Notes under the pieces: model-generated
Seen by the model: the letters and a program-made list of their open reading frames with translations, nothing else
Databases searched by the model: none
What the model was told of the DNA's origin: nothing
Assembly (NCBI RefSeq): GCF_026239695.1
Contig: NZ_JAPIVS010000007.1
Location: 1 to 64,000 of the forward strand
From: Pedobacter sp. MC2016-15
Lineage (GTDB): Bacteria > Bacteroidota > Bacteroidia > Sphingobacteriales > Sphingobacteriaceae
Length of the DNA stretch: 64,000 nucleotides
Reading direction: 5' to 3'
In this document: in pieces, positions 39,893 to 46,848 of the stretch
How positions within the stretch are numbered: the stretch's first letter is position 1
How the letters are laid out: every line of letters begins with the position of its first letter
Position numbers and translations under genes: made by a program

Positions 39893-42754
39893 ATGTACCC
39901 TTACCGCTATTGGAAGCTTCTTTGTTTGCTTCTTTGCTTCCAGCTGGCTGCGTATAAAGCTTCCGCACAGGTCAAATATGCTTTTACGCAGGACACGCTG
40001 CTGATCAAAGGAGGGACAACTTTCGCGAATTTGTTGCGGCTGAGTAATCCCTATGCAGAAACGGTAACGCTGGTACAGAATCCTTCAGAGAAAAAGCTTA
40101 CAAAAGGCCTGATCTCGCTGCCGGATACGCTGGTATTACAAGGCGGACAGACGAGGGCCTTTCCGCTGAAGTATGTGGCCGACAGGCAAACGATCAACAT
40201 CAATTCCCAGGAGTTTAAAGTATCGCTGGTAGCGCTCAAGGCAGGGCTGCAGGTACAGAAGTCTGCCCTCTTCATTACGCAGCTCACAGAGGTAAAAGGT
40301 TTAACTATCGGTACAGAAACGGACGAGGTTTATCTGAGTCAGCTGAGCAACCAGGCGCAGGTGATGGTGCGGGTGGCCAACAACAGCTTTGTGCCGCTGA
40401 GGTTCAGGCTGGCGCTTTCAGGGGTTCCCGACGGACTGGAGTTTATCGGGCAAACGATGAACCTGACGCTGGCCCCGGGAGCTCAGCAGCTGCTGCCTTT
40501 CCTCGCCCGCAACAAAACGGTAACACGTGTAGCACCCGATTTTACGGTAACTATCGATGCACTGGACGACCGCAATACGATCATCGCGACGAAGATGATC
40601 CGTATCCTCAATGTAACCAGCTCGACGCGTTCAGGCCAGGGGAATGACCAGTTTCTGGGGCCGCTGCCAAATGCTGTGGCACTGCGTTATGCCAGCCTCA
40701 GTAATGATTATTCGTTCTACCAGCTGCAGGCAAATGGAAATATGAACCTGGGGGAGAACACGAACCTGCAATACCGGGCGAATGTGGACAGGATTACGCA
40801 GGGTAATAAAAATGGACTTAACATTTACAATTCTTACCTGAACCTGGATACAAAATACTTTGGGGTAAGACTGGGCAATATCTATGAAAATATGGATTTC
40901 CAGCTGAGTGGCAGGGGAGCGAAGGTAAAGGCGAACCTGAAGAAAGCCGGGGTTTTATCATTATATGGCATCGAAAACCAATATATGCTGTATGATCAGA
41001 TCAATACTACTTTCCCTTCTGCACGGATCTATGCGCTGGACTACAACCTGGAGTCGGTTAATCAGGCTCAAAGGCTCACGGCAATGCATAAACATGACCC
41101 TTATACGGGTCTGGATGCGAAACAGGCTTCATGGAAGGGCCGCTTTAAGCTGAGCAAAACCCAGAGTTTAGGTCTGGAGGGTGGCTATTCTACAGAAAAG
41201 TTGTACGACCTGGATACGGAGGTGAAAAAGGGATATTCGGCAGGCTTAAATTACTTTCTCAATACTGAAGATTTCGCTGTCAATGCCAACGGATATTACA
41301 GTAGTCCTTATTTTACAGGGATCCGCCGCGGGCAGCTGAACTCGGAACTGCGTTTGCAGCGAAAGTTCAGCCAGTTTAGCTCTCTCTCGGTACGTGGAAG
41401 TGTACAGATGAACAAGCCGAGGTTCCAGGATCTGGTGAACAACGACCTGAACAATACGCTGAACCTGGGGATCAACAAGAATGCGGTCTATATTTATGAG
41501 GTCGCCTATGCCGCTGCACTGGATAAGTTTCACGTCAGTGGTGGCCCATATTACATGGGTCAGCAGTTGTCGTCTTCAGGCTATTCTGCCTCGGTTCCCG
41601 AGTATACGGACTGGAAAGCTTCTTCAGTTCGTTTTTCTGCGAATTTAGGGTATGGGGGGAGGCTACAGGGATTTGACATCACTGCCGATTATGGGTATAC
41701 GTATCTGAATACGTCGCAGAAGCCTCCGGCTCCTTTTCATTCCTTAAAAGTTACGGGCAGTTATACACTGCCCATTGTTGGTTTTAGCGGGTACGCTCAG
41801 CTGAACCCATTTTACTTGTCGGACGTGATTTCCTATACCCCGGGAACTAACTACAGGATTTATTCTTTCGGACCAAACATTCACTTTACAGCGCTGAAAG
41901 AGAAGCTGAATTTTCGGGGCAGCGGCATGTACAATTATTACGGCTTTAGCAAAAGTTCGAACTATTCTGCTACTGGGAGTATGCGTTACATGATGAAGGG
42001 AAACTGGGCCTTCACGGCTGATGTGCAGTATACGCTGACCAAGCAGGTGCTGCCTTCAGATATTCTGAACAATATCAATGCGGTGCAGAACGGGGCACAG
42101 CCGCTGCCGGGCGACCTGAGGTATAACAACAGGCAGGTACGCGTGGGTGTGGAGAAACAGTTCGGCAGATCGGGACAGCATGGTTCTGAAAAGCTGGAGC
42201 TGACGTATTACGAAGATCATAACAATAACGGCCGCAGGGACACTGGTGAGCCGGCTGTTCCGGGGGTGCTGGTGAAGATCAACGGGGATGCAGCGCTGAC
42301 TAACGCCAACGGGCAGGTGGTGTTTAAGGACATGAGAAAGGAAGCCTATGCGGTGAACATCACGAATACGAAGGGATGGAGTCTGCAGGAGCCTACTTCG
42401 GTATTTCTCAATAAAAGTAAGAAACTGGATATCCCGCTGGTAAAAACTCAGGCGCTGAATGGTTGCCTGAAGGTGAAGGAGGAGAAATATGCCGAGGGTA
42501 AGCCCTTGTTATCGGGTCTGAAGGTGAATGCTGTGGATGCCAACGGGCAGGTGCATGAAACGCTGACGGATGAAAATGGTAAATTCTGTTTTTATCTGCC
42601 AAGGAGTAAGTATTCGGTTTACATCGAGACTGCAGGTTTGCCTTTCTCCATTGAAAATGCAAAGCAGGAGGTGTTGCTGCAGGGAACTCCTGTGGAGATG
42701 CTGACGTTTATCTATAAAGATCAGCACAGAAAGATTGGTGTGAAACGCTTTTAA
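39893..42754 (+). CDS. Usher-like outer-membrane barrel protein with Ig-like ends
   Basis: A 953-residue secreted protein (signal peptide ending near YKASAQ; ATG at 39893, a TTG three bases earlier is ignored). Two N-terminal Ig-like domains (about 25-240) resemble chaperone-type folds. About 500 residues of alternating amphipathic strands follow (about 250-755; motifs such as LNIYNSYLNLDTKYFGVRLGN), as expected of a large barrel. Then comes an SdrD-B-like calcium-loop domain (EDHNNNGRRDTGEPAVPGV, near 770) and a carboxypeptidase-regulatory-like domain near 865-935. The order N-domain, barrel, two C-terminal beta domains parallels fimbrial ushers, though I see no canonical usher motif. The facing genes encode a PapD-like chaperone and pilin-like subunits, supporting a pilus-export role. 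That role is inference. Confidence 0.7.
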   Translation: MYPYRYWKLLCLLLCFQLAAYKASAQVKYAFTQDTLLIKGGTTFANLLRLSNPYAETVTLVQNPSEKKLTKGLISLPDTLVLQGGQTRAFPLKYVADRQTININSQEFKVSLVALKAGLQVQKSALFITQLTEVKGLTIGTETDEVYLSQLSNQAQVMVRVANNSFVPLRFRLALSGVPDGLEFIGQTMNLTLAPGAQQLLPFLARNKTVTRVAPDFTVTIDALDDRNTIIATKMIRILNVTSSTRSGQGNDQFLGPLPNAVALRYASLSNDYSFYQLQANGNMNLGENTNLQYRANVDRITQGNKNGLNIYNSYLNLDTKYFGVRLGNIYENMDFQLSGRGAKVKANLKKAGVLSLYGIENQYMLYDQINTTFPSARIYALDYNLESVNQAQRLTAMHKHDPYTGLDAKQASWKGRFKLSKTQSLGLEGGYSTEKLYDLDTEVKKGYSAGLNYFLNTEDFAVNANGYYSSPYFTGIRRGQLNSELRLQRKFSQFSSLSVRGSVQMNKPRFQDLVNNDLNNTLNLGINKNAVYIYEVAYAAALDKFHVSGGPYYMGQQLSSSGYSASVPEYTDWKASSVRFSANLGYGGRLQGFDITADYGYTYLNTSQKPPAPFHSLKVTGSYTLPIVGFSGYAQLNPFYLSDVISYTPGTNYRIYSFGPNIHFTALKEKLNFRGSGMYNYYGFSKSSNYSATGSMRYMMKGNWAFTADVQYTLTKQVLPSDILNNINAVQNGAQPLPGDLRYNNRQVRVGVEKQFGRSGQHGSEKLELTYYEDHNNNGRRDTGEPAVPGVLVKINGDAALTNANGQVVFKDMRKEAYAVNITNTKGWSLQEPTSVFLNKSKKLDIPLVKTQALNGCLKVKEEKYAEGKPLLSGLKVNAVDANGQVHETLTDENGKFCFYLPRSKYSVYIETAGLPFSIENAKQEVLLQGTPVEMLTFIYKDQHRKIGVKRF

Positions 42755-42819
42755 TATTTCAGGCTCACCTCTCTCTTTACATCATTTTGTGTTAAAGTGT
42801 TCTATTTTAAATTAAACTG

Positions 42820-42883
42820 TTGTTATTTATAAATTAAATATGGTACTTTGTGTCAATGTTTAACTATTAATTGATTTAGGAGG
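42820..42883 (+). promoter_or_regulatory. Promoter and Shine-Dalgarno site of the 70-codon gene
   Basis: TTG (42820-42822) and TACTTTG (42844-42850) are 21 bp apart, close to the Bacteroidota -33/-7 pattern with one base missing. TAGGAGG at 42877-42883 lies 8 bp before the ATG at 42892, an unusually complete Shine-Dalgarno. Confidence 0.5.
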
Positions 42884-42891
42884 ATCATCTT

Positions 42892-43104
42892 ATGGATTTG
42901 TTTGAAAATGACATATTATCAGCTCAAGTTGCTTCTGGAAGAAATAATGAAACCGGAGTTAATTTGACGAAAAACCAAAATAACATTCAATTGATTGCAA
43001 ATGACTTATTATCACATACCAAGCCTTTAGATGCGTTTGAACAAGAGGTCTTGAATAAAACATATGCCAGGTCGTTAAAGTCTGTTCCTTCAAGGTCTTA
43101 CTAG
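42892..43104 (+). CDS. Small protein of unknown function
   Basis: A 70-residue hydrophilic protein, rich in asparagine and with no signal peptide, cysteine or membrane segment. The N-terminal half is acidic and the C-terminal tail basic (YARSLKSVPSRSY). It would be easy to dismiss by length, but it has a promoter-like sequence and a near-perfect Shine-Dalgarno at correct spacing. It lies between the usher-like gene and the end of the pilin/chaperone operon, so it could be a regulator or assembly factor of that system. I recognise no family. Its base composition is more A/T-rich than the neighbours. Confidence 0.5.
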   Translation: MDLFENDILSAQVASGRNNETGVNLTKNQNNIQLIANDLLSHTKPLDAFEQEVLNKTYARSLKSVPSRSY

Positions 43105-43126
43105 TAATTGCATTATTGAAATCGTT

Positions 43127-44509
43127 TTAAGGAGCGGTGATGGTGAACAGGACGTCTGCGGCGTATTGCCCTGCGGCTTTGTTCAGGAGGTTGGAGGTTT
43201 GTGTGCTGGGGATCCGGTACTGGAGGTTCACTGCGCGGTCAAGCACCGGGGCACTGGAACTGATCAGGGTTTGTGCGGTGGTGGAAAGGGTAATGGAAGA
43301 AACGCCGGTTTGTCCGGAAGCTCCTTCGATGATCATAACGCCGGCAGGTATGGTGGTTGCGTTGAGGGTAAAGTTTGAGCTTGCACGCACTGTAACGTTA
43401 TAGGGAATGGTGCTGCTGATGGTGATTGGTGCCGGTGCGGCAACAGTGACGCCTGAGGTATAGTTGGCAGGTGTACTGAAATTAAGGTTTACACCTGTTG
43501 CGGGTATGTTGGCTTCAAACAATCGTGGTACGTTGACAGTAGCCGTGGAAGCCATGGTTAGTGATGCAAGACTCGCGGGTTGCGCTGCTGCAGTTTTGGC
43601 AATCGTATAAGTAAGAGGATAAGTGTATGTTCCGGCCTGAATAAAATTAGCCTGCAAACTTGCGGGTGTCACTCTTAGGGTATTCGTCAAGGTACCACTT
43701 GTATTATTCACTGGTACCGGAATGCCGCTGGATGTACTGAGTGCCTGATTAGAGGTGCTCAGGTTGATCTGAGGACCTGCAGCAGATGTGCCGGACAGCG
43801 TAGCAGTCACTGCCGAAGCTACGAGAGTAGGATCCGTGATCTTTGGAAAGGTTGTGCTGAAGCTGATAGTAGGGCCTGCACGGAGACTGATGTCTACAGG
43901 AACAGAGGTATTGTACGAAAAGGTTTGTGTAGCAGTAACTCCGTTTGTACGGAAGTCGGCCAGGGAAGTGACGTTTAATGCAGTCGTGGATGCGACTGTA
44001 CTCGTTTGTGTCAGGTATGCCGGTACTATAACGGAATAAAATCTTGATGTTGCATCTGATGCACTGAATGTTAGCCCTACGTTGTAACTCCCTGCCTGCC
44101 ATGCTGTACCTGCAATGACCAGGCGGTAATTGATAAACATATTTCCACCAAGGGTGACGCCACCGCTGGCAATAGATTGGTCGACAGTACTCAGTGTGAT
44201 TTCTGGATTGATGGTCCCCAGGTTGATACCCGAGATGCTGCCTAGTTTTATCCTTGCAATATTAAGAGGTAAAGCGCTGCCGGCAGTGCCACTGGTTACA
44301 GGTATCGTTGAGCTGTTTGCCTTTACCCAGATATCTCCTCCAAGTACAAATCCATTGAATCTACCGCTGGCTACTCCGTTTTGGACCTGATCAGCCTGAC
44401 TCGTAATATTCGCTTCTGTCAAATTAAAAGTTACCTGCGCGCGCAACCCTGCGCTGCAAAAACAACACAAAAAAAAACTAAGGGCGGTATATAACTTCTT
44501 TTTCAGCAA
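43127..44509 (-). CDS. Three-module pilin/adhesin-like surface protein
   Basis: A 460-residue secreted protein with a signal peptide (LYTALSFFLCCFCSAGLRAQ). Three homologous beta modules follow, each with a segment like I(T/N)LST..Q.(I/L) and an ending like (Q)AG.Y...L.(F/Y)..: ITLSTVDQSI to QAGSYNVGLTF, INLSTSNQAL to QAGTYTYPLTY, and ITLSTTAQTL to AAGQYAADVLF. The last module closely parallels the pilin-like protein at 45315-45857 (YNVTVRASSNFT against YSVKVTANALFT). It may be a tip adhesin or polymerising subunit. The only upstream start is TTG at 44509, 32 bp inside the chaperone gene; no ATG occurs before residue ~100. A T9 run lies in the signal-peptide codons. Confidence 0.75.
   Translation of the reverse strand: MLKKKLYTALSFFLCCFCSAGLRAQVTFNLTEANITSQADQVQNGVASGRFNGFVLGGDIWVKANSSTIPVTSGTAGSALPLNIARIKLGSISGINLGTINPEITLSTVDQSIASGGVTLGGNMFINYRLVIAGTAWQAGSYNVGLTFSASDATSRFYSVIVPAYLTQTSTVASTTALNVTSLADFRTNGVTATQTFSYNTSVPVDISLRAGPTISFSTTFPKITDPTLVASAVTATLSGTSAAGPQINLSTSNQALSTSSGIPVPVNNTSGTLTNTLRVTPASLQANFIQAGTYTYPLTYTIAKTAAAQPASLASLTMASTATVNVPRLFEANIPATGVNLNFSTPANYTSGVTVAAPAPITISSTIPYNVTVRASSNFTLNATTIPAGVMIIEGASGQTGVSSITLSTTAQTLISSSAPVLDRAVNLQYRIPSTQTSNLLNKAAGQYAADVLFTITAP
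44469..44477 (-). repeat. Nine-base T homopolymer in the adhesin-like signal peptide
   Basis: The coding strand has nine consecutive T in the codons for Ser-Phe-Phe-Leu of the signal peptide (nine A on the + strand). Such tracts can slip during replication, so length variation could switch the gene on and off. Confidence 0.5.
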
Positions 44510-45305
44510 TTTTTAAATCATAGGCAGCGCCGGCATCCAGTAAAGCAACGGCCAGGAATTTACCGGTCAATTCTATTGGCAGGTTAAATGTAACCCATTG
44601 CGTAGCCTGAGGCATCATGGCGATGCTTGCAGGATCAATCTTATGTTCTTCACCGGTTTCTTTATTGGTGAGCTCCAGGCGTACAAAAGCATCCTTGTTG
44701 ATATCTCCCGTATTATGGATCTTCAGCATCAGTCTCCTCAATTTGAGTTTGCCATCGCTAACCGTTCCGCGGTCTTCAAAAGCCAGGAACTCCAGCTCAC
44801 CGGCATTTAATCCGTTTGGTGTGTAATAAACCTGAACACCCATTTCCATCAGGATACTCACCCCAATAGATTTACCTGCAATCGCCGCCGAAGACTGATC
44901 CTTTACCTGCGTAAAAAATATCATGCTCTGAGCATTGGTTTTTGCTACAGCTGGAATAGCCATGGAGATATTCAGCTTTTTGGTTTCCCCGGGAAGAAGC
45001 CTCACCGAAGTGGAAGACATCGTCAGCCATTTCGCGTTGGAGGAAGGCCTGGTCCCCGGGTCATAATACATCTTGTTCCCCAGAGAGTCCCTGTCGAAAT
45101 CCAGGATGCGCGTGCTGAAATTCAGTATCGCCTGCGAGGTATTGCTCAGTGAAATCGTTTGTGCCACAGTTTCACCCGGATTGCCTGTAAAGGATAACCT
45201 GGAGGGGGAAATGGAAAAACCCTGCCCCATTGTTTTGTGTGTAAACAACGGGACAAGGCTTAAAGTATAGATAATAGTTAATAGTATTCTTTTTGAGAAC
45301 CTCAT
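44478..45305 (-). CDS. PapD-like periplasmic fimbrial chaperone
   Basis: A 275-residue secreted protein with a signal peptide (KRILLTIIYTLSLVPLF, ending near TMGQ). The first Ig-like domain reads GFSISPSRLSFTGNPGETVAQTISLSNTSQ and later SVRLLPGETKKLNISMAIP, the pattern of PapD-like and related Ig-type chaperones; a second Ig-like domain (about 150-260) has LMLKIHNTGDINKDAFVRLEL. In chaperone-usher systems this protein folds and delivers pilin subunits. It is encoded between a pilin-like subunit (9-bp gap) and the three-module protein (32-bp overlap), the expected client genes. Classical catalytic residues of PapD (Arg8/Lys112) cannot be assigned with confidence. Confidence 0.75.
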   Translation of the reverse strand: MRFSKRILLTIIYTLSLVPLFTHKTMGQGFSISPSRLSFTGNPGETVAQTISLSNTSQAILNFSTRILDFDRDSLGNKMYYDPGTRPSSNAKWLTMSSTSVRLLPGETKKLNISMAIPAVAKTNAQSMIFFTQVKDQSSAAIAGKSIGVSILMEMGVQVYYTPNGLNAGELEFLAFEDRGTVSDGKLKLRRLMLKIHNTGDINKDAFVRLELTNKETGEEHKIDPASIAMMPQATQWVTFNLPIELTGKFLAVALLDAGAAYDLKIAEKEVIYRP

Positions 45306-45314
45306 TCAGGCAGA

Positions 45315-45857
45315 TTATGGCTGTGTAACCGAATAGATCAGATTGGTAGTATATGTACCCGGAGCTTTACCAATTAATGGTGTAACATCAGGAATACTGT
45401 AAGCCAGACTATAATCGGTTTTCAACGTAGGAACACCTGCCGAGGCAATTGTAACCGGAGTGTTGATCGCATCTGAAAGTGGCACTGCTCCCGCAAGGGT
45501 GGCAGCATTTGCCGGGTTGGTTGCTGTTGCAGCAACATTAACTACACTTAGTGGAACCGGTGTAGCATTACCTGCAATAACAGTAAACAAAGCATTGGCC
45601 GTCACTTTAACACTGTAAGCTTTTGTGCTGATTACAGACAGCTGATTGGCAACGGAAACTGTTTTCGGTGTCTGATAATCCGCAACTGCTGCATAATTGA
45701 ACAACACCTCTGCGTTTGAATTAAGAGTGATGGCAAGCACATCGGTGAGGATGATTTTAACTGGAACCGGACCGGTAGCAACTTGCGCTTTGGCTTTTAC
45801 GTTGACCAGGGTTAGTGCGGCTAAAACTGCAACGACGATGAGTAAATTTCTTTTCAT
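45315..45857 (-). CDS. Pilin-like secreted subunit
   Basis: A 180-residue secreted protein with a signal peptide (LLIVVAVLAALTLVNVKAKAQ). The mature part is a single beta-rich, cysteine-free domain, rich in alanine, valine and threonine, ending GKAPGTYTTNLIYSVTQP. That ending and the YSVKVTANALFT and LAYSIP segments match the last module of the 460-residue protein. Size and composition resemble pilins and spore-coat-U-type subunits of archaic chaperone-usher pili, but I see no firm family motif. It is the first gene of the operon and follows a perfect -7 element, as expected for the most abundant subunit. Confidence 0.7.
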   Translation of the reverse strand: MKRNLLIVVAVLAALTLVNVKAKAQVATGPVPVKIILTDVLAITLNSNAEVLFNYAAVADYQTPKTVSVANQLSVISTKAYSVKVTANALFTVIAGNATPVPLSVVNVAATATNPANAATLAGAVPLSDAINTPVTIASAGVPTLKTDYSLAYSIPDVTPLIGKAPGTYTTNLIYSVTQP

Positions 45858-45933: not shown

Positions 45934-46746
45934 TTACACAACATGCTCATTTTTAATGGTTATAGTAAAGGTTGAGCCCTTATCTACTTCACTTTCAACA
46001 TCAATTGTTCCCCCCAGTGAAGTGATCTGCGTCTTGGTGATGAAAAGCCCTACGCCGCTGCCGTTAACATGGCTGTGAAAACGCTCGTTTAAACCGAAAA
46101 TCCGATCCTTGTGTTTCAGGAGGTCTATACCCATCCCATTATCTTTGAATGTAAGAATAATATTACCTTTCTCATCGAGTTTTGTAGCAATTTCAATTCG
46201 CAATGCGCGGTTTTCAGCACAGTATTTTACTGAATTGGACATTAAATTCATCAGTACACTTTCCAGATAACTCTTGTTAAAAGGAATCATTTCACATTCG
46301 AAACTACTGTGTATGTAAATCCCCATTGTGTGGATCTGCTTGGTAAACGAATTACATACCTTTTTGAAGATTTTAGAGATGCTAACTTTTTCAATTTTTA
46401 TTTCTTTGCTCTGCTTCAGACTAAGCATCTGCGTAAGGTCGTAAATTGTTTCGTTTAACTTATCCGCTGAATCTCTGAACATATCGACAATTTTTTTATT
46501 GTACTCATCCAGCAGATCATAGTTAAGTATATCGATTAAGCCGATCAGATTCGACAGTGGTGCTCTTAAATTGTGAGAGGTAATATAGGCAAACTGACTA
46601 AGATCCTGGTTGCGGGAAGTGAGGTCTTCGATGAGCTGATCCCTCTCTTCTTCAGTTTTGTTGCGGGCAATATATTCCCGAAAATTAGCCGCCAGCGCGC
46701 TGATGTCCGAGTTCTTTATCATATTATTATTCAGTTGATTCGACAT
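45934..46746 (-). CDS. Soluble histidine kinase without recognised sensor domain
   Basis: A 270-residue cytoplasmic kinase from the ATG at 46746; the frame extends to 46824 but the extra residues are unlike a kinase N-terminus. A short coiled coil (about 30-50) leads to H58 in YITSHNLRAPLSNL. The ATPase domain has NLMSNSVKYC, DNGMGIDLLKHKDRIF and GSGVGLFITKTQ. It has no PAS, GAF or membrane part, so input probably comes through partner proteins. It lies 76 bp upstream of the pilin operon on the same strand and no response regulator is adjacent. Confidence 0.83.
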   Translation of the reverse strand: MSNQLNNNMIKNSDISALAANFREYIARNKTEEERDQLIEDLTSRNQDLSQFAYITSHNLRAPLSNLIGLIDILNYDLLDEYNKKIVDMFRDSADKLNETIYDLTQMLSLKQSKEIKIEKVSISKIFKKVCNSFTKQIHTMGIYIHSSFECEMIPFNKSYLESVLMNLMSNSVKYCAENRALRIEIATKLDEKGNIILTFKDNGMGIDLLKHKDRIFGLNERFHSHVNGSGVGLFITKTQITSLGGTIDVESEVDKGSTFTITIKNEHVV

Positions 46747-46848
46747 AAAGTTTATCCTTGGTAGTATGTAACCCATAGTAGACAAACACCTTGCCATATC
46801 CGCTGAGCCCGGAGATTTTAACACTCATTTACATTCCTTTACGGAATA

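Follow-up and report, generated by a model that had tools for sequence, protein, structure and literature searches.

A predicted plugless chaperone-usher pilus locus in Pedobacter and its relatives in the Bacteroidota

The locus and its gene content

The DNA analysed here, referred to as the window, is a stretch of 64,000 nucleotides from Pedobacter sp. MC2016-15 (contig NZ_JAPIVS010000007.1) in which the gene for a usher-like protein converges on three genes for a pilin-like subunit, a PapD-like chaperone and a three-module protein (Table 1). A preliminary description of the window had proposed that these genes form a chaperone-usher-like pilus system. The four open reading frames (ORFs) it had delimited are all intact, and the proposal itself is supported by a barrel that matches FimD and PapC and by genes that are adjacent and occur together. 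We consider it very likely that the predicted product of the four genes is a chaperone-usher pilus with a plugless design specific to the Bacteroidota.

Searches with the single window proteins against Pfam, NCBIfam and the PDB sequences returned no pilus family, so that family profiles were needed; the only parts of the four proteins recognised by Pfam and NCBIfam are the domains at the C-terminus of the usher-like protein. No matches were found in plasmid records. Two other kinds of surface system were set aside, namely type V pili, there being no lipobox cysteine and no FimA/Mfa-type match in Pfam or NCBIfam, and type IX secretion system cargo, as none of the four proteins matches Por_Secre_tail in Pfam or NCBIfam up to E 10.

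Table 1. Features of the predicted pilus locus and the adjoining regulator gene (window positions; residue numbers refer to the encoded protein)
Feature	Position	Strand	Basis or remark
Usher-like outer-membrane assembly platform, 953 aa	39893-42754	+	Signal peptide, intact ORF
Two N-terminal Ig-like domains, residues 27-240	39971-40612	+	Model strand pattern; FixG_C-type Ig matches
Barrel, residues 260-756, ~26 strands, no plug insert	40670-42160	+	Model strands; no plug-profile match
C-terminal domain 1, SdrD_B type, with calcium-type loop	42188-42406	+	PF17210, E 6.2e-12
Calcium-type loop DxNxNGxxDxGE within C-terminal domain 1	42215-42250	+	
C-terminal domain 2, carboxypeptidase-regulatory/prealbumin type	42419-42721	+	PF13620, E 3.7e-7
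Three-module subunit, presumed tip, 460 aa	43127-44509	-	Signal peptide, intact ORF
Module 1, residues 26-152, without N-terminal extension strand	44054-44434	-	First model strand equivalent to strand B
Presumed donor strand of module 2 to module 1, residues 156-162	44024-44044	-	Model strand directly after last strand of module 1
Presumed donor strand of module 3 to module 2, residues 317-327	43529-43561	-	Directly after last module 2 strand; aligns with pilin N-terminal extension
PapD-like periplasmic chaperone, 275 aa	44478-45305	-	Signal peptide, intact ORF
Pilin-like rod subunit, 180 aa	45315-45857	-	Signal peptide, intact ORF; chaperone always adjoins
LuxR-type response regulator, 201 aa	39237-39842	+	Likely regulator of the block; homologue upstream in 29/32 loci

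Conservation and distribution of the gene block

When 84,980 species genomes were scanned with a set of close ushers as query, 32 loci were found, distributed over Pedobacter, Sphingobacterium, Olivibacter, Niabella and Parapedobacter. Every one of the 32 encodes the full set of usher-like protein, tip, chaperone and pilin, and 31 of them keep the convergent arrangement of the window; at the remaining one (L122) the subunit genes lie downstream on the same strand. Close copies were also present in 10 further genomes of the same genus. Among 60 same-genus genomes, chaperone and usher occurred together in 17, the chaperone alone in none and the usher alone in one (Fisher p = 4.6e-14), and in 99 related genomes the chaperone was found in 26 and the usher-like protein in 23, with few exceptions to shared loci. 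Reading of the neighbourhoods showed the block of pilin, chaperone, multi-module subunit and usher in every close relative, and in more distant relatives (L053-L057) a collinear operon with a gene order resembling that of the fim genes. Furthermore, the distance matrices of all pairs of the four proteins were correlated with r = 0.83-0.92, values that no Mantel permutation reached. The co-occurrence and adjacency in related genomes on which the preliminary description had made its proposal depend were thus observed, and the conservation of the block is far beyond chance.

Two loci showed individual peculiarities. At L100 (G002:C9:155319-158108) there is an in-frame TAA near the start of the usher gene; the shortened frame may be translated from a start codon further downstream, or the gene may be in decay. 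At L051 (8687-14950) a single chaperone-usher set is surrounded, across 6 kb, by several dispersed copies of the pilin that are nearly identical (181 aa, all with the same signal peptide), which suggests switching of the rod subunit.

The pilin and the three-module subunit

The signal peptides end at AKAQ before V in the pilin and at RAQ before V in the three-module protein, neither with a lipobox cysteine. In the AlphaFold2 model of the 460-residue protein (pLDDT 88.9), three pilin folds follow one another. The PDB entries that match it best were 3f85 and 3f84, in which two or three CfaB pilins have been fused by engineering (Foldseek E 8.6e-15, VIA-align Z 10.6), and 3f83 (CfaE-CfaB). In addition, all three modules aligned to the pilin family profile with hhalign: module 3 with 99.8%, starting at pilin residue 28 and running through to the pilin C-terminus, module 2 with 91.5% from pilin residue 27, and module 1 with 94.3%, but from pilin residue 82 only. 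That the protein is built from the pilin-subunit fold, as had been read from its sequence, is borne out by both comparisons. Module 1 appears to be without an N-terminal donor strand, as in tip subunits, and the three-module protein is therefore probably the tip subunit. On the model, modules 2 and 3 would each offer a strand to the module before them, and we infer that the tip is a natural chain of three pilins linked in cis.

Relation of the pilin family to the TLP filaments

The profile of the window pilin family found only two good candidates in the PDB, 9ikk (TLP-2, E 0.0066) and 9ikj (TLP-1, E 0.011), each with 16 chains. Pilins encoded beside related chaperones matched the TLP proteins over their full length, with E 4.4e-52 at L060, 2.4e-31 at L058 and 7.4e-34 at L064. 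The large neighbouring ORF matched the window-family usher profile over its full length at L060 (E 2.2e-208) and partially at L058 (E 5.6e-42); at L064 it carries the same plugless motif, in a genome with no match to the usher-family profile. TLP-type pilins were present in 17 of the 99 genomes around G096, several of them as weak matches. None was found in a phylum sample of 296 Bacteroidota genomes, probably because that sample is without the families that have a close copy. On these matches, relatives of the window rod subunit are the proteins of the TLP-1 and TLP-2 cryo-EM filaments. We presume that TLP-1 and TLP-2 (9IKJ and 9IKK) are part of the pond-water filament series of Wang and colleagues, and we know of no sequenced organism that makes them. 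The identity of the filaments in that series is described in a review as not conclusive (PMC12967142).

We find it reasonably probable, taking two propositions jointly, that the TLP-1/TLP-2 fibres found in environmental water are among the products of the system and that its tip consists of three pilins naturally linked into one chain by donor strands.

The chaperone

The chaperone family profile aligned over most of its length with five Escherichia coli chaperones (hhalign 95.3%, E 2.4e-8), whereas a control profile, that of the Ig-containing usher, reached only 3% against the same five. PapD_N was matched individually by 5 of the 27 family members (best E 5e-4), and in two genomes of another class (G243 and G361) the PapD_N cut-off (PF00345) was exceeded at ORFs that the chaperone family profile had found. 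The earlier assignment as a two-domain Ig-type PapD-like chaperone is upheld by these results: because the profile matches the E. coli chaperones and relatives exceed the PapD_N cut-off, the protein is very likely a distant PapD homologue.

Architecture of the usher-like protein

The AlphaFold2 model of the 953-residue protein (pLDDT 81.4) shows an N-terminal position occupied by two Ig-like domains, a strand-rich barrel and two C-terminal beta domains (residues 766-838 and 843-943). The Ig-like domains are supported by FixG_C-type Ig matches in 12 of 20 members of the usher family (best E 1.5e-9), while the window protein gave no match to the Pfam usher N-terminal domain up to E 10; they are presumed to be the periplasmic recruiting region. 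The VIA-align matches barely cover the Ig-like ends of the protein, and no fold family is claimed for them. The barrel corresponds to the ~500-residue strand-rich region noted from the sequence and is predicted to be of outer-membrane type, consistent with a large barrel able to pass folded subunits.

The C-terminal region differs from the preliminary description, which had placed Ig-like domains at both ends and had the protein end in an SdrD-B-like calcium-loop domain. Only the N-terminal domains are Ig-like, those at the C-terminus being of prealbumin and SdrD type. SdrD_B (PF17210, residues 773-831) exceeded the cut-off and CarboxypepD_reg (PF13620, residues 873-915) fell just under it; as SdrD_B is the first of the two C-terminal domains, the usher does not end in the calcium-loop domain. 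D775, N777 and N779 of the loop are invariant across 36 aligned ushers. After the C-terminal domains, and not directly after the barrel, the protein ends with RKxxVKRF (42731-42754), a motif that is strongly conserved in close relatives, with a nearly invariant final F.

Plugless and plug-bearing ushers

In a Foldseek search of the PDB with the usher model, the top eight matches were FimD and PapC structures (E 1.2e-12 to 8e-11), and VIA-align superposed FimD with Z 15.1, C-terminal domains included. At the sequence level, PF00577 (Usher) was matched neither by the window protein nor in any of 48 chaperone-bearing genomes; in the phylum sample its cut-off was exceeded in none of the 296 genomes, with three matches below the cut-off. 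With an E. coli usher profile, hmmsearch of all large ORFs gave no convincing barrel match. The usher has, as proposed earlier, diverged beyond the known family: there is no PF00577 match, yet FimD and PapC rank first by structure. In FimD the plug sits between barrel strands 5 and 6. In the usher model the corresponding loop has 3 residues and no plug-size insert, and a plug profile found no match in window-type ushers. A PF00577 match and a plug are defining features of the usher family; having neither, the barrel protein falls outside that family as now drawn.

The chaperone family occurs in 60 of the 296 sampled genomes. The three sub-threshold Usher matches (G375, G269 and G328) each fall on a large ORF directly adjoining a chaperone gene, and chaperone-adjoining large ORFs are of two kinds, plug-bearing and plugless. 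The plug profile identified nine plug-bearing loci (L150, L151, L152, L159, L164, L168, L067, L167 and L169), two of which, L151 and L152, had been among its seeds. The profile of these plug-bearing ushers aligned with the E. coli ushers through the plug (90.6%), and L151 matched PF00577 with E 3e-4; a Chlorobia-like usher set gave no signal against the E. coli ushers. The plugless kind recurs in other classes, its profile matching the window-type profile at 99.9% over 851 columns. The C-terminal domain pair is common to plug-bearing and window-type ushers (hhalign 97.9%, E 4.7e-13). The simplest reading is a single pathway, served by a single chaperone family, whose barrel either lost its plug or was itself replaced, with the C-terminal domains being retained. 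The preliminary description had inferred a separate assembly system, but the system is not wholly separate, given a PapD-related chaperone and a C-terminal pair shared with plug-bearing ushers.

Some plug-bearing loci have features of their own. In a genome of the genus Pedobacter (G040), L067 (6759-11460) is a second kind of locus, combining a DUF4402 protein, a PapD-like protein of 284 aa and a plug-bearing usher-like protein. The DUF4402 protein (PF14352, E 1.4e-23) looks pilin-like, and DUF4402 may represent a family of Bacteroidota pilins. In other classes, plug-bearing usher-like proteins (L150:4391-7906, L152:1139-5506 and L168:5267-8989) end in SPOR domains. SPOR domains bind denuded peptidoglycan, and anchoring to the cell wall would be unusual for a usher.

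Evaluation of alternative explanations

The window could instead encode an ordinary chaperone-usher system in which the plug is present but has diverged past recognition. The first rank of FimD and PapC in Foldseek speaks for this, and plug-bearing ushers do adjoin the same chaperone family in other classes. However, with strands 5 and 6 only 3 residues apart the model leaves no place for a plug-size insert, the plug profile finds nine relatives in the phylum (its two seeds among them) but not the window type, and the barrel has ~26 strands, not 24. We regard this explanation as unlikely.

Several results do weigh against a plugless chaperone-usher pilus. The pTM of the whole usher model is just 0.52. 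The best VIA-align match of the usher was not FimD but 6r2q_B, the 26-stranded MtrB protein of the Mtr complex (Z 19.4, root-mean-square deviation 4.9 over 435 residues), which fits the barrel better than FimD does. Profile comparison of the barrel sequence with the E. coli ushers gave 5%, that is, no match. The window chaperone alone did not match PapD_N (PF00345) in Pfam, and in the PDB its family profile ranked WxL-interacting proteins before any pilus chaperone. Finally, the link from the window pilin itself to the TLP proteins is direct at the profile level only (E 0.0066).

The MtrB match and the lack of sequence similarity to ushers would both fit an unrelated outer-membrane exporter or conduit that was recruited to PapD-like and pilin-like genes and whose product is a surface complex rather than a pilus. 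This seems quite improbable to us, since the window-type and the plug-bearing ushers have homologous C-terminal pairs, the genes co-occur strictly and the TLP-type relatives are filaments in solved structures. Similarly, the chaperone profile matches EfmWxLIP1 (E 5.5e-4) and WxLIP_PGBD is weakly matched by 11 of the 27 family members, but that the protein is a WxL-interacting-protein-like surface partner, displaying subunits without donor-strand assembly, is hardly credible when the profile also matches FimC-type chaperones over most of its length, relatives exceed the PapD_N cut-off, the tip model resembles donor-strand fusions and the locus, in a diderm host group, encodes a barrel. The similarity fits a shared two-Ig architecture, and no genomic feature of WxL systems accompanies the chaperone.

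Comparison with known pilus systems

The predicted plugless system shares with type 1 and P pili (FimC-FimD and PapD-PapC) a pilin, a two-Ig chaperone, a barrel with two C-terminal beta domains and a tip subunit, the chaperone being homologous by profile and the usher fold ranking first in Foldseek. It differs in a usher with no match to Pfam Usher, no plug and ~26 strands instead of 24, with two Ig-like domains at the N-terminus and prealbumin-type C-terminal domains bearing a calcium-type loop, as well as in a pilin without cysteine and a usher gene convergent to the subunit operon.

Structurally, the three-module protein is closest to CfaB and CfaE of the alternative (alpha, CS1/CFA/I) pili, and one usher relative in the phylum weakly matches CooC_C (PF15976, E 1.3e-5); the window proteins, however, have no sequence family match there, and the CfaB trimers are engineered whereas the window fusion is natural. 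Of the archaic (sigma) pili such as Csu, the CsuE tip subunit was among the structural matches (Z 8.6), but the window proteins match no archaic pilin or usher family in Pfam. Archaic chaperone-usher systems occur across a wide range of phyla (PMC9452303). The window pilin family resembles TLP-1 and TLP-2 at the profile level in the N-terminal strands, while TLP-type pilins are larger (~260-290 aa) and are encoded together with another small partner. Surface fibres of the same phylum are also formed by type V pili (FimA/Mfa1 of Porphyromonas), but the window pilin comes with a chaperone and a barrel; type V subunits are lipoproteins processed at the surface. To our knowledge, the pili described in the Bacteroidota are of type V, and the literature library searched contained no publication on a chaperone-usher pathway in this phylum, including Pedobacter, and likewise none for DUF4402.

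Neighbouring genes

At 29 of the 32 loci a homologue of the LuxR-type regulator lies on the same strand directly upstream of the usher gene, within 112 bp; the regulator belongs to the block and likely regulates it. On the other side, the pilin gene is immediately preceded by a histidine kinase gene (45934-46824) of the same orientation; homologues occupy this place in close Pedobacter loci, whereas the Sphingobacterium loci read have none there. Between the convergent genes for usher and tip, the intervening stretch (42755-43126) appears to contain a small candidate ORF of ~70 codons, starting ATGGATTTGTTTG.

Proposed assembly and significance

Our overall assessment is that the locus is a real, conserved, unannotated and phylum-wide plugless variant of the chaperone-usher pathway, with a predicted function. 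The pilin and the three-module subunit, both with signal peptides, would reach the periplasm by Sec, where the PapD-like chaperone, by homology, would complete each subunit with a donor strand. The usher would take up the chaperone-subunit complexes, probably via its two N-terminal Ig-like domains, and folded subunits would pass the ~26-strand barrel as the chaperone strand is displaced by the N-terminal strand of the incoming subunit. With no plug in the barrel, gating would have to depend on the N- or C-terminal domains or else on the substrate. The three-module subunit would exit first and so form the tip; as modules 1-2 and 2-3 are apparently joined by cis donor strands, only module 3 would accept the next pilin, and pilin would form the rod.

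Bacteroidota dominate guts, soils and fresh water. If this interpretation is correct, the phylum comes within the range of a major pilus pathway, in a version missed by Pfam and NCBIfam, and orphan cryo-EM filaments gain an assembly locus. Moreover, plug-bearing and plugless ushers served by one and the same chaperone family would amount to a natural experiment, in which the role of the usher plug could be tested directly.

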